Source: Gammaproteobacteria bacterium
Lineage (GTDB): Bacteria > Pseudomonadota > Gammaproteobacteria > UBA9214
NCBI GenBank assembly: GCA_029860045.1
Contig: JAOUBY010000007.1
Coordinates: 1-48,483 of the forward strand
Direction of reading: 5' to 3'
DNA length: 48,483 nt
The position numbers and the translations under genes were made by a program. The stretch's first letter is position 1. Every line of letters begins with the position of its first letter. This document shows positions 5,807 to 16,201 of this stretch, piece after piece. The notes beneath the pieces are model-generated. The model was given only the letters and a program-made list of their open reading frames with translations. It did not search any database and was not told the origin of the DNA.

Positions 5807-5879
5807 GCTTTCCGGCTCCTGGTGAAATTAAAAACGGGATGACTGCAAAGGAGCGAGCCCCCCTGCAGTCACCTGGGCG

Positions 5880-6215
5880 TTAGACGCAGCCGGTCGGCTT
5901 CGGCAGGCCGGCGTACTTGCAGGCCTGTTTTGCAGGGCCGTACGGGAACAGCTCGTACAGGTACTTGCTGTTGCCCTTGTCCTTGCCCAGTTTTTTGCCA
6001 ATGGCCTTGGTGAGCACGCGGACTGCAGGAGCGATCTGGTATTCCTCGTAGTACTCACGCAGAAAGTTGATTACTTCCCAGTGACTGTCGGTCAGTTCGC
6101 AATCATCAATCTTGGCCATGACGTCAGCAACGTCTTTGTCCCAGGTGTTCAGGTCAGCCAGGTAACCTTCTTCGTCCGTTTCATATGTCTTTCCGTTTGC
6201 TTCGATACTACCCAT
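5880..6215 (-). CDS. dsrC: DsrC, sulfur-carrier protein with two C-terminal cysteines
   Basis: A 111-residue protein of the DsrC/TusE family. The flexible C-terminal arm carries both conserved cysteines: Cys99 in QACKYAGLP and the penultimate Cys110 in PTGCV. DsrC accepts sulfur from the DsrEFH complex as a persulfide and presents it to DsrAB; the two cysteines can form the DsrC-trisulfide that links to DsrK. Both cysteines are intact, so this is the functional sulfur carrier. The paralog near 12.6 kb lacks them. It sits between dsrH and dsrM in the canonical order. Confidence 0.97.
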   Translation of the reverse strand: MGSIEANGKTYETDEEGYLADLNTWDKDVADVMAKIDDCELTDSHWEVINFLREYYEEYQIAPAVRVLTKAIGKKLGKDKGNSKYLYELFPYGPAKQACKYAGLPKPTGCV

Positions 6216-8474: not shown

Positions 8475-8559
8475 GTGACTCTCCTGAGAAACTTTTCAAG
8501 TTATTGAACAAGTCCCGGCGCATATGCGCCGGGACTTGTTGTATCTGGGTATCTGTTGG

Positions 8560-9822
8560 TTAGGCGGAAGCTGCCTGCTCTTCAGCCTTGCGGGCAAACC
8601 ATTTCTCGGCTTCTTCGTCCCAGCCATCCATGCGGATGTAGGAGCTCTGGCGCGGGCTGCCGACCATGTTCGGGTCAACCTCGACGCCGATGCCTTCCAG
8701 GAAGTTAACCAGGCCGATACGCTCGATCATCTCACCGCAGCGCTCGTGCTCCAGGCCGTTCTCTGCCCAGAAATCGATGATCTCTTCGGCCAGTTCCTGC
8801 ATGCTCTCGTAGTCTTCCTCGGTTTCCAGCTTCTTGAACGGGACCACTACGGTACCCATCAGGTCGCCGATCTTCAGCGTGCGCTTGCCGCCGATGAGGA
8901 TGGTCACACCCTTGTCATCACCGGGATGCAGGGCGCGCGGCATCACGTTCAGGCAATGCATGCAGCGTACGCAGTTGTGGTTGTCCACGCTGATGGTGTC
9001 GTCGTCGTTCAGGCTGATGGCCTGGGTCGGGCAACGGGTAATGACATTATCCATGAGGTACTGACGACCTTTCTTCTCCAGGTAGTACTTGACTTCGTCC
9101 TGGTTGATCTTCATGTCGTCACGCCAGGTACCGATAATGGCGAAGTCGGAACGCTCGATTGCATTCTGACAGTCATTCGGGCAACCGGAGACCTTGAACT
9201 TGAACTTGTAGGGCAGGGCCGGGCGATGCACGTCATCGGTGAAGTTGTTCACCATCAGACGGTGAATGCCGTGCTCGTTGCAGTTGGACATTTCGCAGCG
9301 GGCGCCACCGACACAGGACATGGCGGTACGCACACACGGGCCGGCGCCGCCGAGATCAAAGCCATACTCGTTGATCTCGTCAAAGAAGTGCTGGGTGCCA
9401 TCGGTGGTGGTGCCGATGAACATGATGTTGCCGGTCTGACCGTGGAAGGTCACCAGGCCCGAACCATGCTTCTCCCAGCTATCGCCGAGCTGGCGCAGCA
9501 TGTCGGTGGTGTAGAAGTTGCCGGCCGGCGGCTGTACACGGATGGTATGGAATTCTTTTGACTCCGGGAAGGCATCACCGACCTCGGAGAAACGCGGAAT
9601 GATGCCGCCACCATAACCGTACACACTGACGGTGCCGCCTTTCCAGTAACCCTTGCGGGTTTCATAGGAGTGTTCCAGCTGCCCCAGCAGGCCATTGGTG
9701 ACGGAGTTAATACGCTCGTCCGGATGATCGTCACGCAGGCGCTTGATGCCAGTGATGAAGCTGGGCCAGGGGCCGTGCTCCAGTTCGTCCAGCATGGGTG
9801 TTGGGTAGGTGTTCTTGGCCAT
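8560..9822 (-). CDS. dsrA: DsrA, dissimilatory sulfite reductase alpha subunit (reverse type)
   Basis: A 420-residue alpha subunit. Cluster and siroheme ligands are visible in AMSCVGGARCEMSNC and SGCPNDCQNA, and a ferredoxin insert in NHNCVRCMHC. The gene opens the dsr operon. An in-frame ATG also exists at 9831, but the AGGAG site directly abuts it. ATG 9822 (MAKNTYPTPM) is 9 bases from that site and is the better start. The last residues are alanine-rich (EEQAASA). Expression must start in the 9.83-10.3 kb intergenic region. Confidence 0.97.
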   Translation of the reverse strand: MAKNTYPTPMLDELEHGPWPSFITGIKRLRDDHPDERINSVTNGLLGQLEHSYETRKGYWKGGTVSVYGYGGGIIPRFSEVGDAFPESKEFHTIRVQPPAGNFYTTDMLRQLGDSWEKHGSGLVTFHGQTGNIMFIGTTTDGTQHFFDEINEYGFDLGGAGPCVRTAMSCVGGARCEMSNCNEHGIHRLMVNNFTDDVHRPALPYKFKFKVSGCPNDCQNAIERSDFAIIGTWRDDMKINQDEVKYYLEKKGRQYLMDNVITRCPTQAISLNDDDTISVDNHNCVRCMHCLNVMPRALHPGDDKGVTILIGGKRTLKIGDLMGTVVVPFKKLETEEDYESMQELAEEIIDFWAENGLEHERCGEMIERIGLVNFLEGIGVEVDPNMVGSPRQSSYIRMDGWDEEAEKWFARKAEEQAASA

Positions 9823-9925
9823 GGCATTCATCTCCTGGATTGTTTTCTCTTACACCAAATATTTATTTATTCACTGTTTCAGCGCGCTGCCGCCTGCTGC
9901 GGGCAACCTGTGAAAATCAGTGAGT

Positions 9926-9938
9926 TAATACAGTATTA
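9926..9938. promoter_or_regulatory. Perfect 13-base palindrome upstream of dsrA (possible operator)
   Basis: TAATACAGTATTA has two perfect 6-base arms around one central base. It lies about 104 bases upstream of the dsrA start. The arrangement would suit a dimeric repressor or activator, but no regulator is identified and a chance palindrome in AT-rich DNA cannot be excluded. Confidence 0.35.
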
Positions 9939-10190
9939 CTACAGTCCAACTCTCGATTAGCGCATTTTAGGGAGGCCGCACAAGTGAACATATCCTACCC
10001 TTGGGGTGGCGCGGATATAGGCCTGTATCCCGAACGGGGTATTGGTTTATTTATGATTTAATTTCCGTGAGTTAGTAATGGAACGCGACTAAATTAATAT
10101 GAGTAGAACTTTTTCTTATAGTCACGCGCACTTAATCAACATGTGCCGGAATCAGGTGAGCTTTGTTGCAGTAGATTCAGGCAATTAAAC

Positions 10191-10209
10191 GAGAATGACT
10201 CTCATTAGC
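10191..10209. promoter_or_regulatory. Fur-box-like operator
   Basis: GAGAATGACTCTCATTAGC matches the 19-base Fur consensus (GATAATGATAATCATTATC) at 14 of 19 positions. It keeps the GAGAATGA..CTCATT inverted repeat common in gammaproteobacterial Fur sites. It is about 97 bases upstream of the start of the TauD-like gene, so it could place the 10306-12143 operon, and possibly the divergent dsr operon, under iron control. The call comes from the motif match alone. Confidence 0.6.
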
Positions 10210-10305
10210 GGTTGGGCAACTGCTGTGCCCGTCAGCCGCACCTGTGGTGTATTAAAGCGTAGCGGGTCCGTAACATAACCGGTTGCCGTAAACAGGATAC
10301 CGTAC

Positions 10306-11253
10306 ATGACACTCGTACCCGCAGCCGTACCCGGCTTCCAGCCCTTCGACCTTACTGCACACCGGGACTACGCGGCCTGGCGCGAGTGGAAGCTGGCACA
10401 ATATCCTGCAGCCGTGGCTGACCTGCTGGTACAGGTACAGGATCCGGCGCAACTGACTGCTGCGGAACATGCAGCATTGCTTGCCCGTTGTCGCAAGGCC
10501 AACATGGCAATCTACAGTGTCAGCAGCGGGCAGCCAGTCGACAAGGTCGGCATTCGCGCGCTCGGCCGCCAGTTCGGGCTGGAGCGGCTGGATATGAATC
10601 TGCGAGCGGACGAGGACAGCATCACCTCTATCCGGGTGGTGCCGGCATCGGCACAGACACATTACATTCCCTATACCAACCGCCCGTTGAACTGGCATAC
10701 CGACGGGTATTACAACAGCCTGGACGAGCAGGTGCGCGGTGTCGTGATGCATTGCGCGGCCGCCTCGGCCAGTGGTGGCGACAACCTGTTTCTGGACCCC
10801 GAAATTGCCTATATTCTGCTGCGTGATAAAGACCCGGATTTTATTCGTGTGCTGATGCAGCCGGACGTAATGACTATCCCGGCCAATGTCGAGCAGGGTC
10901 GGGAAATCCGCGCGGCGCAGAGTGGACCGGTGTTCTCCCTTGAAAAAGGCAGTCATGCCCTCCATATGCGTTATACAGCACGCACCCGCAGCATCATCTG
11001 GAAGGATGAACGTGCAGTGCATAATGCCATCGGTTTTTTGAGTGAATTACTCGACAGTGATAACCACTGGATCTTTCGGCATCGTTTGCAGGCCGGGCAG
11101 GGCATTATCTGCAATAATGTATTGCATAAGCGCGAGGCCTTTGCCGATGACACCGACCACACGCGTTTGCTGTACCGCGCACGCTACCATGACAGGGTTC
11201 GGGATACTGTGGCCGGTCAGGATTGTTACGGAGAGAGAGCATGCTCTGGTTGA
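10306..11253 (+). CDS. TauD/TfdA-family Fe(II)-dependent dioxygenase
   Basis: A 315-residue protein of the taurine/gamma-butyrobetaine dioxygenase fold. The iron-binding facial triad is visible: His131 and Asp133 in NWHTDGYY and distal His274 in NNVLHKREAF. Arg287 or Arg291 (HTRLLYRAR) is placed to bind 2-oxoglutarate. An AGGA site precedes ATG 10306. Its stop overlaps the next small ORF by 13 bases, and the Cas6-like gene follows, so the three form an operon. Lying divergent to dsr suggests a link to sulfur metabolism, for example desulfonation of an organosulfur substrate, but the substrate cannot be read from the sequence. A Fur-like box upstream would fit an iron enzyme. Confidence 0.82.
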   Translation: MTLVPAAVPGFQPFDLTAHRDYAAWREWKLAQYPAAVADLLVQVQDPAQLTAAEHAALLARCRKANMAIYSVSSGQPVDKVGIRALGRQFGLERLDMNLRADEDSITSIRVVPASAQTHYIPYTNRPLNWHTDGYYNSLDEQVRGVVMHCAAASASGGDNLFLDPEIAYILLRDKDPDFIRVLMQPDVMTIPANVEQGREIRAAQSGPVFSLEKGSHALHMRYTARTRSIIWKDERAVHNAIGFLSELLDSDNHWIFRHRLQAGQGIICNNVLHKREAFADDTDHTRLLYRARYHDRVRDTVAGQDCYGERACSG

Positions 11254-11453: not shown

Positions 11454-12143
11454 ATGTTCTGGAATGATGAAAAAGAGGAAAAGCCGGGGTTCGTGATTCC
11501 GGATGACGTGATCGACCTGGCGTTCAAGGTCGCTTGTCCGACCCTGCCGCTGGATCATGCGCATGCGCTGTCATCGCAATTGCTCAAGGTTCTGCCCTGG
11601 CTGGAGGACGAGGCATTTGCCGGTGTGCACCTGATCCACGGTGCTGCTTCCGGCAATGGCTGGTATCGCCCGGAAGACACCGCCAATGAAATACTGCATC
11701 TGTCCAGGCGCACCCGCATGCGGTTGCGTATTCCCCGGCACCGCCTCGAGGATGCGCAGGGCCTCACCGGTTATACGCTGGATGTCGATGGCCATGCGCT
11801 GGAAGTTGGCGCATCCGATGTCTTTTTGCTTAGCAGTCTGTCCACGTTATTTGCACGCTATGTCATTACCGCTGCCGACACGGATGAAAATATTTTTCTC
11901 AATGAGGCGGCACGAGACCTGAAAGAACTCGGGATTCCGTGCCGCAAGATGCTGGGCGGCATCAGCCATACCATGCAGTTCCCGGATGGACCGGTGCATA
12001 CACGCAGCCTGATGGTGGCGGAACTGGAGCCGGAGCAATCGGTACGCCTGCAACAGGTCGGGCTTGGCGAGGGGCGCAGCATCGGCTGTGGTCTGTTCCT
12101 GCCGCACAAGGGGATCAAGGCGGTCAACGATGAGAAGGAATAA
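11454..12143 (+). CDS. Cas6/Cmx6-like RAMP-fold protein (stand-alone)
   Basis: A 229-residue protein resembling the Cas6/Cmx6 subgroup described for type I-MYXAN CRISPR systems. The N-terminal half has VACPTLPLDHAHALS, LPWLEDE and GVHLIHGAASGNGW; the middle has LSRRTRMRLRIPRHRLEDA. The C-terminus carries a glycine-rich loop, GLGEGRSIGCGLFLPHKG (residues 203-220), the hallmark of RAMP RNA-binding endonucleases. Histidines 36, 59 and 62 are catalytic candidates. Cas6 proteins cut CRISPR precursor RNA, yet no repeat array and no other cas gene is in this window. The gene sits in an operon with a dioxygenase next to dsr. It may serve distant arrays or have a different RNA-processing role. The family call comes from remembered motif similarity. 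Confidence 0.78.
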   Translation: MFWNDEKEEKPGFVIPDDVIDLAFKVACPTLPLDHAHALSSQLLKVLPWLEDEAFAGVHLIHGAASGNGWYRPEDTANEILHLSRRTRMRLRIPRHRLEDAQGLTGYTLDVDGHALEVGASDVFLLSSLSTLFARYVITAADTDENIFLNEAARDLKELGIPCRKMLGGISHTMQFPDGPVHTRSLMVAELEPEQSVRLQQVGLGEGRSIGCGLFLPHKGIKAVNDEKE

Positions 12144-12281: not shown

Positions 12282-12485
12282 ATGAGTGAAAAACAGGAAA
12301 TCATCAAGAAACTGCTGGAAATGCAGAAAAAATTCATCGACATTGAGCATGAAAGCGGTGTCGAGATGAAGGACTATTTTGCTGCCGAAGACGGTCATCC
12401 GCTGAAGGGCTTCCGCCAGGAATACATGGACATGGCCAACAAGCTGGTCGACATGGCACATGAGGAGAAGGGCTCGCATCGCTGA
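12282..12485 (+). CDS. Small acidic helical protein of unknown function
   Basis: A 67-residue protein with no cysteine and no membrane segment. It is mostly charged and predicted helical (KQEIIKKLLEMQKKFIDIEH; QEYMDMANKLVDMAHEEKG). A GGAG site precedes ATG 12282, and a strong rho-independent hairpin follows, so it looks like a single-gene transcript with its own promoter in the 138-base gap upstream. I do not recognise the family. Its position between the Cas6-like gene and a DsrC-family paralog suggests it belongs to the dsr-associated gene set, which is inference. Confidence 0.75.
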   Translation: MSEKQEIIKKLLEMQKKFIDIEHESGVEMKDYFAAEDGHPLKGFRQEYMDMANKLVDMAHEEKGSHR

Positions 12486-12506: not shown

Positions 12507-12538
12507 TAAAAAAGCCGCGCATCTGCGCGGCTTTTTTT
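12507..12538 (+). terminator. Rho-independent terminator
   Basis: The hairpin AGCCGCGC-ATCT-GCGCGGCT is followed by seven T and preceded by an A run. It follows the 12282 gene by about 25 bases. The flanking A and T runs let it work in both directions, so it may also end the leftward DsrC-paralog transcript. Confidence 0.9.
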
Positions 12539-12581: not shown

Positions 12582-12920
12582 TTAATAACCGCCTTTACGC
12601 GCGACGTACGGTAATCCTGCAATCTTGTTGCCCTGCTTGCTGGGTGCGAGCGGAAACAGTACATAGAGATCTTTACTGGTGACTTTCCTGCCCCAGATCT
12701 TGGACATGCCTTTATTGATTGCCCGCTCCATCGGCTGCTCACCGCCATTTTCAAGGTATTCCGTGCGCAGATAATTCAGCACATCAAAGTGTTCCTGGGT
12801 CAGCTCGATGTTATCCTCGGCGGCCAGCGCCCTGGCGATATCCTCATCCCAGGTGCCCGGATCAGTGAGGTTGCCGTTAGCGTCGGTCTCAATGCTCTTG
12901 CCATTTACTTCCAGTGCCAT
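12582..12920 (-). CDS. DsrC/TusE-family paralog lacking both redox cysteines (RspA-like)
   Basis: A 112-residue DsrC-family protein. The fold signature is clear (GTWDEDIARALA; LTQEHFDVLNYLR; DLYVLFPLAPSKQGNKIAGLP). At the positions of the two sulfur-carrying cysteines it has Asn (QGNKIAGL) and, at the end, Gly-Tyr (ARKGGY), and the protein has no cysteine. It cannot carry sulfur by the known chemistry. Such cysteine-less forms have been proposed to be regulatory (RspA). ATG 12920 is 7 bases from AGGAG; the upstream in-frame ATG at 12926 is too close to that site. It is monocistronic, about 2.8 kb from dsrA. Confidence 0.88.
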   Translation of the reverse strand: MALEVNGKSIETDANGNLTDPGTWDEDIARALAAEDNIELTQEHFDVLNYLRTEYLENGGEQPMERAINKGMSKIWGRKVTSKDLYVLFPLAPSKQGNKIAGLPYVARKGGY

Positions 12921-13138
12921 TTCCATACTCCTGGTTCAAGTTTAGAAAAGAAATTTCGGTGTGGAATTGTATTGCAATGTAACCGCTATCGGAAGAGGTA
13001 CAGATGCCACCGGGTAACCAGCCGGAAATGGCCCTGCCTGGGAGTATTCCCTTATGCTGACATTCATGGCGCACAGGTTCAGGGATGGTCGGGTTGCAGG
13101 TAAAATATTGATTTTAGGTGTCTCCGGGACGGTAATAC

Positions 13139-13645
13139 GTGCTGTATCAAGAATTCACTTTAAATAGTTCGGATAAGCTCAATTCCAGCCTGTACACCCG
13201 GTTCATGGAATTGTCCGGTAGCGACCGTATCAGGGAGACACATCACTTTGGTGGTCGCTTCGAGAATATCTATGTAGAGCTGGATGACATTCCGGAAATT
13301 GCTACGCTTCTGGTCGTGGTGAAGCAGCAGGCCGGCCAGTTGCTGGGTATTGCAACAGAAAGATTAAAGGCCGGGTTCTGGTTTAATGCCATGGAGGCAG
13401 GGCATCGGACCGGGCCGCATCACCACGATGAGAATGACGAGTTACTGTCGGCGGTGTACTACATTCGCGTACCGGAGAGTTCGGGTGACCTGATTCTGCA
13501 CGACGATGGCAGGCAGGTCATTATTCATCCGCAGGAAGGCAAGCTGGTGATGTTTGCGCCGGCTGTATTGCATGAGGTGACAGCCAATCTCAGTTCGGAG
13601 ATGCGCTTGTCTGTCGCTTTCAATGTGGGGCCGGTGGAAGGTTAA
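13139..13645 (+). CDS. Putative 2OG-Fe(II) oxygenase-fold protein
   Basis: A 168-residue cupin-like double-stranded beta-helix protein. Candidate metal ligands are the HHHDEND cluster (His94-Asp97) and His145 in PAVLHEVTAN. Arg156 in EMRLSVAFNV is the likely 2-oxoglutarate contact. Motifs such as AVYYIRVPESSGDL resemble the 2OG-Fe(II) oxygenase family PF13759. The predicted start is GTG 13139 and the ribosome site is weak, so the true start may be slightly different. It is one of four non-haem iron oxygenase-fold genes within 6 kb. The substrate is unknown. Confidence 0.7.
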   Translation: MLYQEFTLNSSDKLNSSLYTRFMELSGSDRIRETHHFGGRFENIYVELDDIPEIATLLVVVKQQAGQLLGIATERLKAGFWFNAMEAGHRTGPHHHDENDELLSAVYYIRVPESSGDLILHDDGRQVIIHPQEGKLVMFAPAVLHEVTANLSSEMRLSVAFNVGPVEG

Positions 13646-13672: not shown

Positions 13673-14344
13673 TTAAACATCCGACCACATGCGTACCAGG
13701 TTGATGTAGGCGTGATTGACCTGTTGTGTTTCGGGTGCGTCCGAACTTTTCTGTAATAATGCCTCGCGCGCCAGGTTGAGTTCGTGCAGCAGGGCGCGTT
13801 GCTCGGGGCTGCGTATCATGCTCTGGATCCAGCTAACGGCAACCAGCCGTTCGCCGCGGGTGACCTCGGCAACCCGGTGAATGCTCGATGAAGGATATAA
13901 TACGGCGTCGCCGGCCGGCAGCTTGACCTGCTGCTCGCCGAAGGCGGTCTGGATGCACAGTTCGCCGCCATCATAACTGTCCGGCTCACACAGGAAGACG
14001 GTGACCGACAGGTCGGAACGGTACAGTTCGCCCTGGCCCATGACCGGGTCGTCGACATGCGCACCGTAGGACATGCCGGCATTGTAGCGTGCGTAGTAGG
14101 GTGCCGCGGTCTTCAGCGGCATGGCGGCACTGCGAAATACCGGGTGTTTCACCAGGCTGCCCATGACGAGATTGTTTAGTTCGGAAAAACGCGCCGGGTC
14201 GAGTGACAGTTCCTCGTTGAGTTTGACGCGCCGTGCCGCCTTGCCTGCGGATTCCCGGCCATCAGCAAAGCGGCCCGTAGCAATCAGCGCAGTCACCTGC
14301 TGCAATTGTGCATCGTCGAGTACTTTTTCAATGTGGGTAAGCAT
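13673..14344 (-). CDS. PKHD-type Fe(II) dioxygenase, YbiX/PiuC family
   Basis: A 223-residue prolyl-4-hydroxylase-like protein. Iron ligands are His96 and Asp98 in YGAHVDDPVMG and His156 in SSIHRVAEVTRGER; Arg166 is the 2-oxoglutarate contact. Length and motifs match the Fe2+-dependent dioxygenase family that includes E. coli YbiX and Pseudomonas PiuC. Relatives are often next to TonB-dependent siderophore receptors and iron-regulated, but no receptor is near here. It converges on the 13139 gene with a 27-base gap. Confidence 0.85.
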   Translation of the reverse strand: MLTHIEKVLDDAQLQQVTALIATGRFADGRESAGKAARRVKLNEELSLDPARFSELNNLVMGSLVKHPVFRSAAMPLKTAAPYYARYNAGMSYGAHVDDPVMGQGELYRSDLSVTVFLCEPDSYDGGELCIQTAFGEQQVKLPAGDAVLYPSSSIHRVAEVTRGERLVAVSWIQSMIRSPEQRALLHELNLAREALLQKSSDAPETQQVNHAYINLVRMWSDV

Positions 14345-15589: not shown

Positions 15590-16201
15590 TCAGGCAAACA
15601 CGACCCAGGTCGTGGCAATGTATTTCACACCCTCTTGCAGGGTGGAGCCGCGATGCTCGTGCGTCCAGAATGGCGGGAACAGCAGCAGTTTGCCGGCTTC
15701 CGGGCGGACTTGCACATCCTGGTACGAGAAATCCGTGGTGCCGCCCGGACCGTCAACGCCGTTCAGATACCAGACTGCGACCAGCTGGCGCTGGCTGAAT
15801 TCATGGCTGCCACCGTCGATATGCCAGTGATAGAACTCGCCCGGGTTGGTGCGCTGGATAGCATAACCACTGTCCTTGAACGGCCCCTTGAAAAAGGGGT
15901 AGGCATCACGAAATTCCTGGATGGCGAGACCCAGCGAACGAAACAGTTCGCGATCGATGTCTTTCCAGTGTGCCTTGCCGCTGACGACCAGGTCAGTGGA
16001 GCGCTTGATGTTCTGCTCTTCCTGTATGGTCTGGCCTACACGCCCGGCATATTGTTCGTCTTCGCTGGCCTCGAAACGCCGGATCATCTCCTTGCAGATA
16101 TCCAGTGGCAAGGCGCGCTGTTTCTCGAAGATGAAACTGAGTGGTTTTACTTCCCGGATGCTGCGCAGTGGCGTGACCGGTGCGGGAGGTGTCTGTTTCA
16201 T
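15590..16201 (-). CDS. 2OG-Fe(II) oxygenase family protein
   Basis: A 203-residue prolyl-hydroxylase-like protein. The facial triad is visible as His127 and Asp129 in YHWHIDGGSH and His181 or His183 in FWTHEHRGS; Lys193 (EGVKYIATTW) may bind 2-oxoglutarate. It has no signal peptide, so it is expected in the cytoplasm. It is the middle gene of a three-gene leftward operon, between a Sfum_1244-like protein and an acetyltransferase. Modification of a peptide or small molecule is possible but cannot be deduced. Confidence 0.82.
   Translation of the reverse strand: MKQTPPAPVTPLRSIREVKPLSFIFEKQRALPLDICKEMIRRFEASEDEQYAGRVGQTIQEEQNIKRSTDLVVSGKAHWKDIDRELFRSLGLAIQEFRDAYPFFKGPFKDSGYAIQRTNPGEFYHWHIDGGSHEFSQRQLVAVWYLNGVDGPGGTTDFSYQDVQVRPEAGKLLLFPPFWTHEHRGSTLQEGVKYIATTWVVFA

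Follow-up and report, generated by a model that had tools for sequence, protein, structure and literature searches.

A DsrC paralogue without the two C-terminal cysteines is linked to dsr genes and to an orphan Cas6-family gene in Gammaproteobacteria

Introduction

Many Gammaproteobacteria from the sea, from sediments and from symbioses oxidise sulfur by means of the oxidative Dsr pathway, for which dsrABEFHCMKLJOPNRS is the set of genes commonly listed. DsrC of A. vinosum reportedly binds DNA. Venceslau et al. reportedly used the name RspA in 2014 for DsrC homologues without both C-terminal cysteines; to our knowledge, a dsr/Cas6 linkage was not part of that work on RspA.

Further members of the DsrC family are on record. 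Four extra genes are listed for A. vinosum in the available part of PMC3368242, their role not being established there, and for the Solemya velum symbiont the accessible text of PMC4287430 mentions homologues that lack both cysteines and then sets them aside. On phages, five dsrC-like genes lacking both motifs are described in the sections available of PMC8190135. Here we describe a DsrC paralogue encoded near the dsr cluster of a gammaproteobacterium and compare it with its relatives. The window referred to below is the whole stretch of DNA analysed (48,483 nucleotides).

Results

The dsr cluster of the window is located on the minus strand and runs from dsrA down to dsrC and further, with the paralogue gene upstream of dsrA (Table 1). 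The corresponding minus-strand ORF spans 12582 to 12926 including the stop codon and has in-frame ATGs at 12926 and 12920, of which the latter is the start position shared with relatives. The coordinates 12582-12920 given in a preliminary description of this DNA are correct; the strand, absent from it, is added here.

Table 1. Features in and around the paralogue locus
Feature	Coordinates	Strand	Basis
Canonical dsrC, both cysteines	5880..6215	-	ORF, Pfam, alignment
dsrA	8560..9831	-	Named by sequence and gene order
Intergenic region separating the divergent dsrA and TauD-like genes, candidate for regulation (from the preliminary description)	9832..10305		Gene ends
TauD-like 2-oxoglutarate/Fe(II) oxygenase, the divergent gene closest to dsrA	10306..11253	+	Pfam, gene order; recurs in relatives
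Orphan Cas6-family protein; in other genomes usual upstream neighbour of the paralogue	11454..12143	+	Pfam, TIGR02807, solved-fold alignment
67-aa ORF 3' of the Cas6-like gene, converging on the paralogue	12282..12485	+	ORF listing and sequence
Intrinsic-terminator-like hairpin between convergent genes	12508..12537		One found vs 1.0 expected from shuffles
Cysteine-free DsrC paralogue (RspA-like, RKGGY clade), 112 aa	12582..12920, stop included	-	ORF, profile matches, tree
Shine-Dalgarno-like AGGAG	12928..12932	-	Sequence; 7 nt 5' of ATG 12920

The encoded protein matches the Pfam family DsrC (PF04358) with an E-value of 1.2e-29 over residues 4-104, its match to TIGR03342 exceeds the cut-off (85.8 vs 53.5 bits), and it is 47% identical to the canonical DsrC of the window over 104 columns. 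Its AlphaFold model (pLDDT 88.3) has the DsrC fold with a floppy tail, and the best eight matches in a fold comparison with the PDB all belong to the DsrC family (1yx3 with TM 0.87 and E 1.5e-7). The preliminary description regarded both functional cysteines as replaced and the canonical DsrC at 5.9-6.2 kb as intact, and we confirmed this. The CysB position, some ten residues ahead of CysA in canonical DsrC, is occupied by Asn98 (KQGNKIAGLP vs KQACKYAGLP in DsrC) and the CysA position by Gly111, followed by the terminal Tyr112, with the C-terminal arm two residues longer than that of DsrC; in the canonical protein, CysA and CysB are both present. Judged from its sequence, sulfur carriage via CysA/CysB is excluded for the paralogue. 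The protein is acidic, with a pI of 4.97 and a mean net charge of -3.2 across 83 relatives, and the fold comparison with the PDB returned winged-helix regulators only at E >1 and no significant DNA- or RNA-binding fold.

Positions that are conserved to at least 90% and identical in 91 paralogues and 56 DsrC proteins include R52, R66, K70, K83, Y86, P93, K95, Q96 and the LFP and GLP motifs; the residues fixed in paralogue and DsrC alike fall on the protein body and the arm base. By contrast, the fixed differences (Q62, G97, the inserted R108-K109, G111, Y112 and one gap at DsrC K78) concentrate at the arm tip. The genome to which the window belongs encodes five DsrC-family members, among them the canonical protein with both cysteines, a member on contig C108 with CysA and without CysB, and the paralogue. 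Very divergent members (L004 and L005) are encoded on contigs C77 and C145 of the same genome, that on C77 having a CysB-like cysteine only and that on C145 neither.

RKGGY forms the C-terminus of every full-length relative in the first set compared. The same end is found in 82 of 83 further loci, the last one being cut by a contig end; these loci comprise three viral ones and 80 from named genome records, which are the best 80 of 510 confirmed stretches and hence biased to near relatives. The named loci (L064-L143) partly overlap with the genomes sampled below, and counts were kept separate. RKGGY also ends 20 additional orthologues and four from outside Gammaproteobacteria. Cysteine is entirely absent in 75 of the 83 loci, and the other eight have one or two cysteines, located between positions 14 and 58 and never at CysA/CysB. 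The residue at the CysA position is glycine in all complete relatives. At the CysB position of 91 paralogues, Asn (46), Thr (28), Gly (12), Leu (4) or Ser (1) is present and never Cys; as read from the alignment, this position is variable and without tight constraint. Five short forms (L153-L157, all five read) have a cysteine at position 103 (GGCP) and none at CysA/CysB, and the term 'cysteine-free' is therefore not absolute.

A single branch separates the RKGGY group from all other sequences in a tree of 62 rows (support 99/95). A tree of 42 rows rebuilt without the arm still has the group as one clade (100/98), and we thus rejected the clade being an artefact of the arm motif. No mention of such a clade is made in the available parts of PMC10504309 or PMC13293266. 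Compared with seven orthologues, the window copy has dN/dS values of 0.06 to 0.20, with two of the seven (L007 and L064) giving identical values and looking like one record, and the paralogue is retained in the three genomes of ~1.0-1.1 Mb that were read (L150-L152). The observation goes beyond chance, given these dN/dS values and the invariant C-terminus in distant relatives.

The distribution of the paralogue was determined in 370 gammaproteobacterial genomes, each at least 90% complete. By a rule that we set ourselves, the profile match of an orthologue had to reach position 112; matches ending at 105 represent canonical DsrC and were dropped. The paralogue was found in 117 genomes, dsrA in 124 and both in 112 (one contig-edge fragment, G119, is included in these counts), and 241 genomes had neither gene; Fisher's p of about 1e-73 for this co-occurrence is overstated since the genomes are related. 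Five carriers of the paralogue gave no dsrA hit. An orthologue was not detectable in 12 of the 124 dsrA genomes, some of whose assemblies are fragmented, and the paralogue is therefore not strictly required. In 82 of the 112 genomes, the two genes share a contig and are no more than 25 kb apart, the actual distance being 1.6-5.3 kb; in the remaining 30 the paralogue is on another contig or far from dsrA. In linked genomes, it lies upstream of dsrA in 81 of 82 and divergent from it in 78 of 82. The orientation differs in the window and two relatives (G000, G004 and G016), where the paralogue is inverted, and in G183, where it is placed inside the operon in the order dsrABEFHCMK, paralogue, dsrL, dsrJ, dsrO on a single strand (L158). 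In G054 (L054), it directly precedes dsrL. Among 397 genomes drawn across the phylum, six carry the paralogue; four of these are from outside Gammaproteobacteria, and one of the four (G541) has homologues of dsrK, L, J and O within the stretch read.

On the basis of the 370 genomes, we rejected chance linkage of the paralogue to dsr. The close linkage noted in the preliminary description is borne out beyond the window, and with 112 of 117 carriers having dsrA and 82 of 112 being linked, the paralogue probably functions in or on the Dsr system. Records titled Halobacteria or Rhodobacteraceae/Amylibacter also carry the paralogue locus (L065, L130 and L135); the dsr genes of L065 are 70-96% identical to those of the window, and the title of this record looks wrong.

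The usual gene order is dsrA, a divergent TauD-like oxygenase gene, often a gene for a protein of ~239 amino acids, the gene for a Cas6-family protein, and the DsrC paralogue. In 46 of 91 loci (e.g. L079 and L117), the gene for the ~239-aa protein separates the TauD-like gene from the Cas6-like one, about 1.6 kb before the paralogue, and two examples scanned had no Pfam family at significance. The Cas6-like neighbour in the window matches PF09559 (E 2.9e-63) and TIGR02807 (141 bits vs a cut-off of 98.85), and its predicted model has a pLDDT of 86.1; an alignment of the family matches the solved Cas6 8fcj with an E-value of 3.2e-22. Compared with solved Cas6, the dsr-linked family has an additional conserved SQNGWERP-like stretch. 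Of the 370 genomes, 128 have PF09559, among them 121 of the 124 dsrA genomes and 115 of the 117 carriers of the paralogue. Paralogue and Cas6-like gene are at most 3 kb apart in 101 pairs, 96 of which have the same strand and order, with the Cas6-like gene just 5' and a median gap of 134 bp. No Cas1 was found in the genome of the window, and it was absent from 14 of 20 further genomes searched.

Unlike those 96 pairs, the two genes converge in the window. The hairpin at 12508-12537, with an A run on one side and a T run on the other, could serve as a terminator on both strands. Pfam assigns three 2-oxoglutarate/Fe(II) oxygenases near the paralogue, namely the TauD-like protein and the products of 13139-13645 and 13673-14344 (minus strand), and a fourth ORF (15590-16201, minus strand) has an oxygenase-like look by eye; all four lie within 6 kb around the paralogue. 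Of the 41 named loci that have flanks of 6 kb or more on both sides, 12 have neither dsrA nor a Cas6-like gene in the vicinity; these include three Allochromatium species. A cysteine-desulfurase-like gene, so identified by reading its sequence, adjoins the paralogue in three such loci (L121, L129 and L131). Clustering of neighbours yielded one large mixed cluster (77 loci, 334 members) made up mostly of antisense shadow ORFs, which was set aside, and no E1-like or JAB-type gene was prominent among the recurring neighbours listed.

Strong hairpins (z below -3 vs shuffles) were present in 11 of 33 dsrA-dsrB gaps and 13 of 34 dsrC-dsrM gaps, and in none of three control gaps (H-C, 0/19; M-K, 0/15; K-L, 0/33). 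Three gaps with few sequences of sufficient length gave 2/7 (B-E), 0/2 (E-F) and 0/3 (F-H). The hairpin gaps of the window are 8475-8559 (dsrA-dsrB) and 5807-5879 (dsrC-dsrM); many sulfur oxidizers have hairpins in these two gaps, with differing sequences. A common Cas6 recognition hairpin in the dsr operon was rejected, as the two hairpins of the window differ in sequence and no shared site was found. According to the available part of PMC3397948, transcripts of dsrEFH and dsrC exceed those of dsrA in A. vinosum. Such unequal levels could be explained by segment-wise RNA control.

Three viral contigs hold orthologues (L145, L146 and the only putatively viral L144/L036). On L145, a contig of 219,676 bases, a two-cysteine dsrC ends 10 nt before the paralogue, the tandem occupying positions 9652-10342; four of five other proteins tested match phage families (GroES, endonucleases, unknown), which is a weaker proof of phage origin. 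L146 is a phage contig with baseplate and tail genes and has the paralogue at 9971-10312, with no dsrC seen within the stretch listed. An additional viral scan with an alignment of the small-genome forms returned one contig, which had already been found.

Discussion

The paralogue is very probably a genuine part of the oxidative Dsr system. Evidence for such a role comes from its predicted fold, its tail, the membership of a single clade, the co-occurrence with and position relative to dsrA, the pairing with Cas6, and, in single cases, the place within the dsr operon or next to a viral-contig dsrC.

With regard to its mode of action, we tentatively prefer, at somewhat less than an even chance, a model in which the thiol-free paralogue docks where DsrC docks, carries no sulfur and thereby gates or regulates the system. 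Because body and arm base keep residues that DsrC also keeps, the protein may dock on one or more partners of DsrC, i.e. DsrAB, DsrEFH, DsrMK or DsrL. Since RKGGY replaces the thiol at the tip, sulfur would be neither taken up nor handed on at the partner, and the paralogue, as a gatekeeper or competitor, might control the passage of sulfur or electrons through DsrC. It is the combination of shared residues on body and arm base with fixed differences at the tip that makes docking without sulfur transfer our first choice. However, this model leaves an RNA-binding family as regular neighbour unexplained, and the dsrA genomes without an orthologue (12/124), the loci with neither dsrA nor a Cas6-like gene nearby (12/41), Cys103 in the five short forms and the variable CysB position also speak against it.

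The regular neighbour would find a place if the paralogue, together with the Cas6-family protein, bound or processed dsr mRNA depending on the state of the Dsr machinery, which we regard as possible but doubtful. The conserved order of the pairs and the near-constant presence of the Cas6 family in dsrA genomes point in this direction, as do the absence of Cas1 from the window's own genome and most others searched, the strong hairpins in two dsr gaps with none in the three control gaps, and the transcript levels in A. vinosum. Yet Cas6 enzymes usually recognise specific repeats, whereas the two hairpins of the window have no sequence in common. Moreover, the paralogue is acidic and has no significant match to a DNA- or RNA-binding fold, conserved pairing is no proof of a complex, and the two genes converge in the window. 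A wider model of two-protein dsr control, in which the thiol-free DsrC would read Dsr occupancy via its RKGGY arm, a Cas6-family protein freed from CRISPR would process or stabilise segments of dsr mRNA (at the hairpins after dsrA and dsrC), and phages of sulfur oxidizers would carry the thiol-free DsrC to bias this control, appears unlikely as a whole.

The preliminary description had suggested that the paralogue senses or modulates Dsr activity or binds the dsr promoter. A function tied to the Dsr system is likely from co-occurrence and linkage with dsrA, so that this reading is partly supported; that it is a transcription factor binding the dsr promoter is decidedly improbable. The divergent position upstream of dsrA in most linked genomes, the reported DNA binding of A. 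vinosum DsrC and weak winged-helix matches (6ez1 RosR, probability 0.54, E 1.8) would be compatible with it, but these matches are not significant, the protein is negatively charged, and the copy beside dsrC on a viral contig and the copy inside an operon fit a role at the protein level better. ThiS, MoaD and CysO are carriers with a C-terminal thiocarboxylate, and purely by analogy, removal of the last tyrosine would leave the invariant Gly-Gly as an end that could be converted to a thiocarboxylate. This is very unlikely: the fold is that of DsrC and not beta-grasp, E1-like or JAB-type genes are not prominent among the recurring neighbours listed, and a tail of this kind would give the conserved RK and Y no evident role. 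Least of the remaining functional roles to be expected is that of a TusE-like protein in tRNA thiolation, which shares the family. Identity with TusE was rejected since CysA is missing (TusE needs its penultimate cysteine according to the part available of PMC3397948); furthermore, the presence of the paralogue tracks dsrA, and the genome has another member with CysA, on contig C108. A decaying, functionless duplicate, to which the loss of catalytic residues might point, is practically negligible as an explanation. It was rejected, and the paralogue taken not to be a degenerate copy, on account of the low dN/dS, a tail invariant over 100 loci and retention in reduced genomes.

Should Dsr be accompanied almost everywhere by a thiol-free DsrC and a Cas6-family protein, two parts are missing from the accepted gene list, and control of flux through DsrC becomes directly testable. 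A tie of a CRISPR RNA-processing family to sulfur metabolism would be surprising in itself. In the literature searched, most subscription journals being outside its scope, we found neither RspA in the DsrC sense nor anything on point for a Cas6-dsr link or DNA binding by DsrC. The family, and in outline the type lacking the cysteines, are known; the almost constant association with dsr and with an orphan Cas6 appears to be new.

Compared with known systems, the paralogue has fold, length, arm base and dsr linkage in common with DsrC (TIGR03342/PF04358; e.g. 1yx3, A. vinosum). It differs in the absence of CysA and CysB, an arm that is two residues longer, the invariant RKGGY and a separate clade. 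Family and fold are also common to TusE, but the paralogue is devoid of the CysA that TusE uses, and its presence tracks dsrA. RspA-type homologues are said to lack CysA and CysB and to occur in sulfur oxidizers, as does the paralogue, and their identity with the RKGGY clade is putative. Finally, dsrC-like genes of SUP05 and other phages, some without one or both cysteines, place the DsrC family on phages as observed here; the RKGGY clade is not described in the available parts of PMC4164917 and PMC8190135, whereas the viral contigs analysed here carry the RKGGY form.
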